Origin: a virus
Length of the DNA: 34,604 nucleotides
IMG/VR virus record: IMGVR_UViG_3300020395_000041
Span: 1-34,604 of that record
Reading direction: 5' to 3' (one strand)
Shown piece by piece: positions 8,772 to 34,013 of the stretch. Under the pieces are notes generated by a model that did not search any database, was not told the origin of the DNA, and saw only the letters and a program-made list of their open reading frames with translations. The first letter of the stretch is position 1. Each line of letters opens with the position of its first letter. The position numbers and the translations under genes were made by a program.

Positions 8772-8800
8772 ATTATAACATATTTAACTAAAAAAATCAA
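8772..8800 (-). promoter_or_regulatory. Sigma70-like promoter for the 66-aa gene
   Basis: On the minus strand TTGATT (8795-8800), a 17-base spacer and TATAAT (8772-8777). The -10 box is perfect and the -35 matches four of six. The predicted start near 8765 leaves a leader of about 15 bases. The -35 overlaps the stop region of the upstream 257-aa gene. Confidence 0.6.
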
Positions 8801-9570
8801 CGGGTCCATGTGTTCTGACCACTATAATTAGGATTATCTGCTTTAGGATCAGGATAATCTTCCCAGGTCTCACCTTCATACTCAACAGTTAATGGATTAA
8901 TATCCTTCCTTTCCGCATATACATGGAAGAAACAATCGATAGGCATACCTCCATGTGCTTGAAGATATATCTTCTCATCATCCCATCTCTTTATAATAAT
9001 ATCCTGATGAGCACCGATTGGTTGAAGTTGTACAGAAATACTATCTACATGTACCAGGTCTTTCCAATAAGAAGGGAGTTCAATCTCTTTTCTATTTCTT
9101 ACTCTTCCTCTATGATAAACCCCAACCTCTGCACCTTCAATACATGCATGGGCAAGACGATATCCTTCTCGTGAGGGATGAGGAATATCAAATTTCTTAG
9201 GTAGACCATCTGCTACTATATGTCTTGCTTCTAAACGTCCAGTAGAAAGACAATCAACCGATCCTGTAACATATAAATCCCCAACAATATACTGATTTCC
9301 GACGACCTTCAAAGATTGTGGTAAAAGTCCTGAAACTCCAATAGAACTTTCAGGCATCAAACAATCAGGATCATCATTTCTACAAGGTGCTACCATTAAA
9401 GTAGCATTATTTCCAAAAATATCAGGATCATTAAAATCTCCAATATGAACTGGACCTTCTATAGCAGCCGATCCATTTATCTTTTCGGCTCCCTGTCCAA
9501 CTCCAGCACACTGTCCAGTTCCTAAAAGCAATTGACCGCCAATATTTACGTCATCAAAATTACTTGCCAT
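8797..9570 (-). CDS. Virion structural protein with a C-terminal domain shared with the 113-aa protein (257 aa)
   Basis: A probable tail or baseplate protein. The N-terminal ~125 residues are Gly-rich beta sequence (GGQLLLGTGQ, a DxDC patch near 67-71, NQYIVGDLYVTGSVDCLSTG). Residues ~130-240 form a distinct domain: HPSREGYRLAHACIEG, VYHRGRV, ELPSYW, SISVQLQPIGAH, IYLQAHGGMPIDC, ERKD. The same domain makes up nearly all of the 113-aa protein encoded at 33672-34013. Domains of this HP-x-EG-x-YxRG-x-LPxYW type occur at the ends of phage fibre and virion proteins; that is from memory. A strong AGGAGG ribosome-binding site sits seven bases before the ATG, next to the stop of the preceding gene, predicting high expression. 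Confidence 0.75.
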   Translation of the reverse strand: MASNFDDVNIGGQLLLGTGQCAGVGQGAEKINGSAAIEGPVHIGDFNDPDIFGNNATLMVAPCRNDDPDCLMPESSIGVSGLLPQSLKVVGNQYIVGDLYVTGSVDCLSTGRLEARHIVADGLPKKFDIPHPSREGYRLAHACIEGAEVGVYHRGRVRNRKEIELPSYWKDLVHVDSISVQLQPIGAHQDIIIKRWDDEKIYLQAHGGMPIDCFFHVYAERKDINPLTVEYEGETWEDYPDPKADNPNYSGQNTWTR

Positions 9571-32633: not shown

Positions 32634-32641
32634 TATTTAGA
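32634..32641 (-). promoter_or_regulatory. Candidate late promoter (TCTAAATA) after thyX
   Basis: Minus-strand TCTAAATA followed by AAATTAC, overlapping the thyX TAA stop. It lies 24 bases before the ATG of the 80-aa gene. Confidence 0.4.
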
Positions 32642-33281
32642 CCCAACCAAGGGCTTCAGAAACAGTAGGAAATTCTCTTATAAAAACCTTCCGCACATTC
32701 TCTACCAAATCTATATGTTCTTTCTGCGTACCATGAGCAGACCTTAATTCAATATAATGTATCCATGATCGTACTGAACCAGTCATATACAATCTTGTAG
32801 GTGTAGCAAGAGGCAATACAAACCGAGCACACTCCTTTGCTATACCATCATGAAGCATCTCTTTATAAAGGTCTATAGATGCATCAAAATGTTTTCTCAT
32901 TTTCTTATTAAATTTCTCTACCGTAGCATCATCTATATCATCAATAGAATTCTGTCTGTTCTTTGTATCTTGTCTGCGAAGTTCAGGTAAGGGTATATCT
33001 TCTCTGATATAAGATACATCAGCATACCTTTGAGAGAACTCTTGATACGTAAAGGATCTATGTCTTAGTATTTGGGCTGCAAGACCTCTAGTAGTATTAA
33101 TCTCAACAGTCATGAATGCTTGCTCAAAGACACTCCAATGCCCATGTTGAATACAATACCTTAGAAGACCTGCAAACTTCTCATTGTCTTGGTTCTGGGG
33201 GTTACTAACACGAGCAACATATGCTATTGTCTTCTCCGCATCAGGAGTAACACTAACAAGTTTAATCTGGGTATCCGTCAT
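32637..33281 (-). CDS. thyX: ThyX, flavin-dependent thymidylate synthase (214 aa)
   Basis: Makes dTMP from dUMP using methylene-tetrahydrofolate, FAD and NADPH. The ThyX signature RHR-x7-S is present as RHRSFTYQEFSQRY (73-86). Also seen are the family's N-terminal part VSVTPDAEKTIAYVARVSNP and the C-terminal LPLATPTRLYMTGSVRSWIHYIELR (split as LPLATPTRLYMTG and SWIHYIELR), where substrate-binding Arg residues lie. The ATG at 33281 has a GAGG ribosome-binding site; the ten codons upstream are in frame but without one. The gene overlaps the previous 62-codon gene by 20 bases. Phage ThyX feeds DNA synthesis during infection and pairs with host ribonucleotide reduction. Confidence 0.93.
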   Translation of the reverse strand: MTDTQIKLVSVTPDAEKTIAYVARVSNPQNQDNEKFAGLLRYCIQHGHWSVFEQAFMTVEINTTRGLAAQILRHRSFTYQEFSQRYADVSYIREDIPLPELRRQDTKNRQNSIDDIDDATVEKFNKKMRKHFDASIDLYKEMLHDGIAKECARFVLPLATPTRLYMTGSVRSWIHYIELRSAHGTQKEHIDLVENVRKVFIREFPTVSEALGWV

Positions 33282-33438
33282 CGTCCTCAAAGACCTCATC
33301 GTAATCAGCAATTTGTGGAGTCATCTCCCTATAATTTTCATATCGATATGCATCCACATCTGAATACACTTCTGACTCTAATGCATCCACAAGGGATTTC
33401 ATATTTCTAATAATGAGTTTTAATTTTTCCTTATCCAT
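33262..33438 (-). CDS. Small acidic hypothetical protein upstream of thyX (58 aa)
   Basis: Not recognised beyond being a small acidic phage protein. It reads as a helix MDKEKLKLIIRNMKSLVDAL followed by an Asp/Glu/Tyr-rich tail (DEVFEDDDGYPD). I chose the ATG at 33438 rather than 33450: a GAGA ribosome-binding-like stretch precedes it, and the earlier ATG lies immediately after a TCTAAATA late-promoter-like octamer and would be excluded from that transcript. Its 3' end overlaps thyX, so it is coupled to it. The structured RNA described at 33460-33653 would form most of its leader in early transcripts. Confidence 0.65.
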   Translation of the reverse strand: MDKEKLKLIIRNMKSLVDALESEVYSDVDAYRYENYREMTPQIADYDEVFEDDDGYPD

Positions 33439-33450
33439 TTTGTTTCTCAT

Positions 33451-33458
33451 TATTTAGA
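33451..33458 (-). promoter_or_regulatory. Candidate late promoter (TCTAAATA) before the thyX operon
   Basis: Minus-strand TCTAAATA between the end of the structured RNA segment and the ATG at 33438. If used, it would produce a transcript of the thyX operon that lacks the structured leader. Confidence 0.35.
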
Positions 33459-33459
33459 A

Positions 33460-33653
33460 GGGTGGGAGGTAGGATTTGAGTATTCCTACAAGCACAGGGC
33501 ATTGCTACTCTGTAGTATTACTGTGCTGCATGTGTTCTATCTGGTTGGATAGTTCTTCCGAAGAAGCGAGCACCACCTCTAACACATCACCTTAACCAGC
33601 CTATTGCCAGCAAGTTTAATTCAGTCACTCCCCGTTACACCCGTCGATGCAAC
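33460..33653 (-). ncRNA. Candidate structured RNA or leader upstream of the thyX operon
   Basis: This ~195-base stretch has no gene on either strand, is richer in GC than its surroundings and directly follows a consensus promoter. On the minus strand several helices are visible: GTAGGA/TCCTAC (33484-33489 with 33469-33474); AGCACAG/CTGTGCT (33521-33527 with 33491-33497) with an inner CTAC/GTAG; ATGTGTT/AACACAT (33581-33587 with 33530-33536); CTTC(TTCG)GAAG (33555-33566), a C(UUCG)G tetraloop; CTATC/GATAG (33548-33552 with 33537-33541). The loop of the last can pair with CTGGTT at 33594-33599, giving a pseudoknot. GGGAG/CTCCC (33628-33632 with 33464-33468) and GGGT/ACCC may close the whole domain. 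No family was recognised; it may be a leader with a regulatory role or a free RNA. Confidence 0.6.
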
Positions 33654-33659
33654 AGATAT

Positions 33660-33688
33660 ATTATACACTACTTATGAAGCAGTGTCAA
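33660..33688 (-). promoter_or_regulatory. Consensus sigma70 promoter for the structured RNA / thyX operon
   Basis: Minus-strand TTGACA (33683-33688), a 17-base spacer and TATAAT (33660-33665), a perfect match to the host consensus. The -35 and part of the spacer lie in the last codons of the 113-aa gene. The predicted start is the G near 33653. Confidence 0.82.
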
Positions 33689-34013
33689 GCTGCTCTTCTG
33701 CCTTAAGGTCATCTATATCCTTTCTCTCACCAATTATCAAGTAATAACAGTCAACAGGCATATTACCATGTGACTGAAGATATACCTTATTATCTCCTAT
33801 TCTTTTAACAATAATATGTTGATGAGCACCAATTGGAGTCAGATGAACTGAAATAGAAGTTTCTTCTACCAAACCTTCCCAATAATTAGGTAATTTTATT
33901 TCATTCTGACTAATTAGTCTTCCCCTATAGAATACTGCATTCTCTGGGCCAACAAGAGATGCCAAATTTAAACTATAACCCTCAAGAGTAGGGTGATTAA
34001 TGTTCATTTTCAT
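33672..34013 (-). CDS. Stand-alone copy of the virion C-terminal domain (113 aa)
   Basis: Nearly the whole protein matches the C-terminal domain of the 257-aa virion protein (8797-9570). Matching blocks are HPTLEGYSL / HPSREGYRL, VFYRGRL / VYHRGRV, EIKLPNYWEGLV / EIELPSYWKDLV, SISVHLTPIGAHQHIIVKR / SISVQLQPIGAHQDIIIKR, VYLQSHGNMPVDCYY / IYLQAHGGMPIDCFF and GERKDID / AERKDIN. It lacks the N-terminal beta part. The ATG overlaps the stop of the upstream gene by four bases (ATGA), so it is probably made together with that structural protein, perhaps as its separate tip or cap. The last codons contain the -35 box of the promoter facing left. Confidence 0.8.
   Translation of the reverse strand: MKMNINHPTLEGYSLNLASLVGPENAVFYRGRLISQNEIKLPNYWEGLVEETSISVHLTPIGAHQHIIVKRIGDNKVYLQSHGNMPVDCYYLIIGERKDIDDLKAEEQLDTAS

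Follow-up and report, generated by a model that had tools for sequence, protein, structure and literature searches.

The DNA analysed here, a virus record from IMG/VR (IMGVR_UViG_3300020395_000041) of 34,604 nucleotides that we refer to as the window, encodes PhoH, ThyX, 2OG-Fe(II) oxygenases, a gp32-like protein, and structural proteins of T4-like cyanophages, and it comes from a T4-like marine cyanophage. On its minus strand, a promoter and a structured RNA precede an operon that includes thyX (Table 1). A preliminary description of this locus, made from the sequence, had reported that a gene-free segment upstream of the thyX operon contains a structured RNA with a promoter in front of it, called the RNA unexplained, and recognised no known family. 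When the whole 34.6-kb window was scanned against Rfam 15, a single match was obtained, to the manA RNA (RF01745), with a score of 146.1 bits (gathering cut-off, 55.2), an E value of 1.2e-38, and alignment to positions 1-192 of the 192-position model. This result identifies the segment, with near certainty, as a manA copy. The RNA therefore has a family, one published by Weinberg et al. in 2010 (PMC2864571), and much of the remainder of the description is borne out by the Rfam match, by covariation, and by an exact promoter. No ORF of at least 50 aa on the RNA strand overlaps 33460-33653.

The 3′ end of manA lies ∼10-20 nt before the first ORF on the minus strand with no terminator between them, and the late-type octamer that had been noted in this interval is CTAAATAA. 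The first ORF, a member of phrog_878, probably has its true start at ATG 33438. The order manA-phrog_878-thyX-phrog_385-phoH recurs elsewhere, one instance being AG-345-E15, a single-cell-derived marine virus. Upstream of manA, a 113-aa reading frame (33672-34013, minus strand) belongs to the same families (phrog_28536 and phrog_17490) as one at 8797-9570 on that strand; because the 113-aa protein aligns with the profiles over their C-terminal half alone, it appears to be a partial duplicate.

Table 1. Features of the manA locus, in window positions unless another locus is named
Feature	Position	Strand	Evidence
-35 box TTGACA	33683-33688	-	Sequence; promoter at same relative place in 126/130 loci
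-10 box TATAAT	33660-33665	-	Sequence; predicted start near 33653, foot of 5′ hairpin
manA RNA, complete model 1-192	33459-33651	-	Rfam RF01745 covariance match
5′ hairpin, 6-bp stem 33646-33651/33636-33641	33636-33651	-	Rfam alignment
Closing stem P1, GGGAG (33632-33628) with CUCCC (33468-33464)	33464-33632	-	Paired in 75/75; sequence nearly invariant
Central helix 33581-33586/33531-33536, three hairpins inside	33531-33586	-	99.3% of cells paired; 6/6 pairs altered on both sides
UUCG hairpin	33555-33566	-	Rfam alignment
Possible loop-loop contact, UGGU (33575-33572) with ACCA (33545-33542)	33542-33575	-	Both motifs in 75/75
7-bp helix 33521-33527/33491-33497	33491-33527	-	98.5% of cells paired; 7/7 pairs altered on both sides
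3′ hairpin 33485-33489/33469-33473	33469-33489	-	100% paired; 4/5 pairs altered on both sides
CTAAATAA, resembling a late promoter, between manA and the first gene	33450-33457	-	Sequence
Small ORF phrog_878, unknown function, 62 aa	33262-33450	-	phrog_878 E 1.9e-18, match from residue 5
thyX, flavin-dependent thymidylate synthase	32637-33311	-	PF02511 E 8.4e-48
Companion hairpin CCUAAGAUGCAA...GGGCAGAUGG, other loci	L041:1975-2008; L011:199-232; L086:6160-6193; ∼115 further viral loci	-; +; -

The manA family and its distribution

The main text of the original report already lists cyanophage manA upstream of nucleotide-synthesis and sugar genes and, like Rfam, classes the RNA as cis-regulatory (PMC2864571). 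A review of phage small RNAs restates this label (PMC12197685), and in the Rfam 14 paper manA appears solely as a structure update (PMC7779021). No statement on manA was found in the main text of a P-HM2 infection transcriptome paper in which intergenic reads were counted. The window copy resembles the published family in its full-length match, its helices, its T4-like marine cyanophage setting, and the nucleotide-synthesis genes nearby. It lies in a potential 5′ UTR with the gene on the same strand, and through thyX it fits the published context classes (mannose/fructose or nucleotide metabolism, ibpA-type chaperones, and photosynthesis); it differs in preceding phrog_878-thyX, a setting unnamed in the main text of the original report. 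Another structured RNA of marine cyanophages, wcaG (RF01761), has been reported beside manA in phage S-CREM1, and it had no covariance match in the window, where only RF01745 reached threshold.

We gathered ∼120 matching stretches from viral contigs together with the copies in 17 phage records, and ∼130 copies were compared. A sequence search of plasmids yielded no convincing homologue, and a scan of viral contigs with a longer manA pattern yielded no matches. Six matches were obtained in a pattern scan of bacterial genomes, of which three carry manA, two of these adjoining genes for phage-family proteins; the other three lack the promoter and RNA core and resemble chance matches. The single-cell genome of Prochlorococcus sp. 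AG-418-C09 has manA on a 189,106-base contig, the size of a T4-like phage genome, where it adjoins a gene for a phage-family peptidase (phrog_459). This copy probably belongs to a cyanophage that was infecting the cell or was sorted along with it, and not to the host.

Fold, promoter, and 5′ end

The minimum free energy of the segment was -59.2 kcal/mol (z -1.65), and 13 of 200 shuffled sequences were equally good. In an alignment of 75 homologues (A2) that was not fitted to structure, and onto which the Rfam structure was mapped through the window row, 91.0% of cells were paired and 35 of the 54 pairs were altered on both sides. None of 500 shuffles was as high, the covariation score was 0.362 compared with 0.144 in shuffles, and sliding the Rfam structure by 1-3 columns reduced the paired cells to 36-49%. 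The covariance score and the compensatory changes in these homologues show that the fold is far beyond chance. Such a density of long helices had been judged unlikely to arise by chance, a view that the E value and the compensatory changes sustain and that free energy alone does not. The alternative in which the fold arose by chance, leaving an ordinary promoter with an untranslated leader, can point to the modest z score; it is refuted by the full-length match and the massive compensatory change, and we regard it as exceedingly improbable.

The covariation among homologues that the preliminary description had proposed as a check was extensive in its named long helices, which are the helices of the manA family. 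The 7-bp helix 33521-33527/33491-33497, the 6-bp 5′ hairpin, the UUCG hairpin, and the closing stem are all present in the Rfam alignment of the window copy, as are six of the seven pairs proposed for helix 33581-33587/33530-33536 (33581-33586/33531-33536), one pair falling outside it. The proposed pseudoknot between CTGGTT (33599-33594) and AACCAG is contradicted by the homologues, in which 72.7% of cells pair; half of the homologues have CTAGTT (RNA CUAGUU), and this change disrupts the third pair in 37 of the 75 copies. The discoverers of manA mark a possible pseudoknot with a question mark (PMC2864571). A loop-loop contact between UGGU and ACCA is compatible with the alignment, which does not prove it, as both strands are invariant. 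Invariant loops and junctions of manA are seen in A2. In the P2 region, alternative AACU/RGUU pairs form in 100% of copies and show a degree of compensation, and the Rfam P2 pairs, favoured by the Rfam consensus, are found in 95%. A divergent subtype (AACCCTGTTGGAA...) with an altered P2 region occurs in S-SSM7, S-SSM4, and P-TIM40.

The TTGACA and TATAAT boxes upstream of the window copy are exact and are separated by a 17-nt spacer, as had been described. Across the family, a sigma-70-type promoter matching at least 10 of the 12 consensus bases lies just upstream of 126 of the 130 copies with enough upstream sequence, and at least 11 bases match at 120 of the 130, compared with 0.7% of control windows. 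This near-universal occurrence indicates that the promoter belongs to the conserved unit. A hairpin of at least 5 bp starts after the -10 box, mostly 5 nt on, in 120 of 130 loci, and the manA RNA is therefore predicted to start with a hairpin. In the window, the host sigma-70 polymerase would most likely act early in infection and start transcription at the base of the 5′ hairpin, at ∼33653. The stem of this hairpin is variable among homologues (41 distinct 5′ stems), and its loop is GACG in 92 of 120. At one exceptional locus (L104), a tRNA-Thr gene (9296-9369, plus strand) lies directly upstream of manA in place of the promoter.

A hairpin at the start of the transcript could block 5′-end-dependent decay, as would suit a reading of manA as a gene-independent 5′ module that aids any early transcript, for example by stabilising the mRNA or by binding a phage or host protein. 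This reading, which we consider quite unlikely, fits the strict co-orientation with the downstream gene and the indifference to that gene's identity described below. Against it, loops and junctions would not have to be invariant in a simple stabiliser, a genome could use a module of this type more than once but has a single copy, and the terminators and tRNAs that follow manA would cut it off from the mRNA.

Copy number, neighboring genes, and sites of manA

Exactly one manA was present in each of 42 phage records (42/42), 15 of which are annotated cyanophage genomes of 172-252 kb; S-PM2, Syn9, S-SM1, and S-SM2 contained none above the cut-off. The downstream gene was co-oriented with manA in 117 of 117 loci, and the upstream gene was opposite in 9 of 109. 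Among 124 loci, the gene that most often follows manA is gp32 (29), which is unnamed in the list given in the main text of PMC2864571; the other themes fit that list. After gp32 come talC transaldolase (19), the thyX operon (13), DUF6561 (9), hsp20 (8), phosphomannomutase-like genes (7), PurS (6), mannose-6-phosphate isomerase (3), and others that include unknown genes.

In the published reading, as given in the main text of PMC2864571, manA would be a cis-acting leader, here a candidate riboswitch that senses a nucleotide or sugar metabolite and controls phrog_878-thyX. The constant co-orientation of a close downstream gene, the manA-thyX-phoH arrangement in about 13 other loci, and the frequency of nucleotide and sugar genes downstream all agree with a ligand-sensing leader. 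We nevertheless find this reading doubtful, since there is a single copy per genome and the downstream gene is nearly independent of the RNA sequence. The downstream family can hardly be predicted from how similar two RNAs are: 20% of manA pairs that are at least 92% identical share this family, compared with 12% when labels are permuted, and of two copies that are 99% identical, one precedes a phosphomannomutase-like gene and the other gp32. A conserved 200-nt repeat could give rise to chimeric joins in metagenome contigs, which could exaggerate this variety of neighbors, but cultured phages show the same pattern, and the manA sites in isolates are non-homologous (after gp23; before talC, gp32, or purL/hsp20; after pstS; after ferredoxin).

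The sequences on the 3′ side of manA bear on the same reading, because the downstream gene is often set apart from manA by tRNAs, terminators, or promoters of its own, and no conserved expression platform was found there. At 43 of 121 loci, manA is followed by a hairpin that is terminator-like or conserved, compared with 8% after ordinary stop codons, and tRNA genes lie closely downstream in ten. In S-SSM7, manA directly precedes a tRNA-Gly gene (L130:2712-2782, plus strand), and a gene for tRNA-Asn, -Gly, or -Tyr lies just after it in the nine other loci. A TAAATA-type late-promoter-like motif was present within 90 nt downstream in 37 of 123 loci (30%), compared with 5.5% of control windows. 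Complementarity between the 3′ strand of P1 and the downstream DNA was not above that of shuffles. Sequestration of a downstream Shine-Dalgarno sequence by the CUCCC of P1 was considered and rejected on this ground and because such motifs follow manA in 18 of 90 cases, compared with 24% elsewhere.

A companion hairpin of ∼40 nt, with the form AGACCUAAGAUGCAACUC-loop-GAGUSGGGCAGAUGGUCU, lies 8-20 nt past the 3′ end of manA in 29 of 121 loci, about a quarter, and a T-run follows some instances. When viral contigs were scanned for this hairpin alone, 88 of the 89 newly fetched instances directly followed the 3′ end of manA, and the remaining one was cut by the contig end. The hairpin folds with a 5/3 internal loop and shows compensatory changes outside (GA/UC to AA/UU) and inside (ACUC/GAGU to ACUU/AAGU). 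It has no family match in Rfam and is previously undescribed. The window copy of manA is without it.

P-HM1 and P-HM2, which are listed under one species name, have manA at two different sites. In P-HM2, manA lies between a promoter and gp32; at the gp32 site of P-HM1, the promoter and ribosome-binding region are kept and manA is absent. P-HM1 instead has a promoter-manA-terminator unit after gp23, and the late promoter and Shine-Dalgarno sequence of the next gene are the same in P-HM2. These comparisons show that manA changed site between the two phages, both sites keeping their own promoters, and the loss of manA from a gp32 gene that kept its promoter is a further point against a ligand-sensing leader. 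Before gp32 in P-HM1, where P-HM2 has manA, a short AGTAATGCTGCATTGCAGTAAT stretch (L251:4198-4245) resembles part of a manA hairpin and is possibly a remnant of a lost copy. S-SSM7 and S-SSM4, which belong to different genera, have manA cores that are 94.9% identical at different genome sites. For the DNA polymerase gene of S-SSM7, the 40 best matches do not include S-SSM4, and the listed non-self ones are 67-75% identical. The manA identity across genera, taken with this result, suggests horizontal exchange of the RNA.

Proposed function of manA in cyanophages

Judging from sequence comparisons, we lean somewhat toward cyanophage manA being a self-contained RNA gene rather than a leader tied to one downstream gene. 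More specifically, and more tentatively, it may not be a riboswitch-type leader at all: the promoter and fold, often with a companion hairpin or terminator dedicated to them on the 3′ side, would make up an autonomous RNA gene, present once per genome, that phages exchange horizontally, that moves between sites, and whose product acts in trans in the infected cell. In support of an RNA gene are the promoter that accompanies nearly every copy, the single copy per record, the unrelated genes that follow near-identical copies, the non-homologous sites in isolates, and the change of site between P-HM1 and P-HM2 with promoters kept. The terminators or hairpins, tRNAs, and late-promoter-like motifs that follow manA, and the lack of P1-downstream complementarity above shuffles, point the same way. 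Against an RNA gene stand the orientations of the flanking genes, which are those expected of a leader, the cis-regulatory label given by Rfam and the discoverers, the short terminator-free gap in the window, and the recurring downstream themes (gp32, talC, thyX, purS, PMM, mannose-6-phosphate isomerase, and hsp20).

As an RNA gene, manA would be transcribed into a discrete RNA that folds as a multi-branched domain closed by GGGAG/CUCCC and functions as RNA, probably through a protein or ligand that it binds in trans, and its place in the genome would be largely incidental. In the window, the transcript probably continues into phrog_878-thyX, for which there is also a separate late-type promoter. 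GOLLD and ROOL are stand-alone structured RNAs of phages, some beside tRNA genes, and are not bound to one downstream gene; they are much larger than manA and belong to other families.

The cis-regulatory classification of manA dates from 2010, and no function has been found since then; the evidence presented here questions that label for the phage copies. If these copies are self-contained RNA genes, looking for a ligand that acts on a single downstream gene would be misdirected, and the family would be testable by deletion and complementation in cultured phages of Prochlorococcus and Synechococcus. P-HM1 and P-HM2, members of one species group with manA at two sites, would provide a natural pair for such tests.
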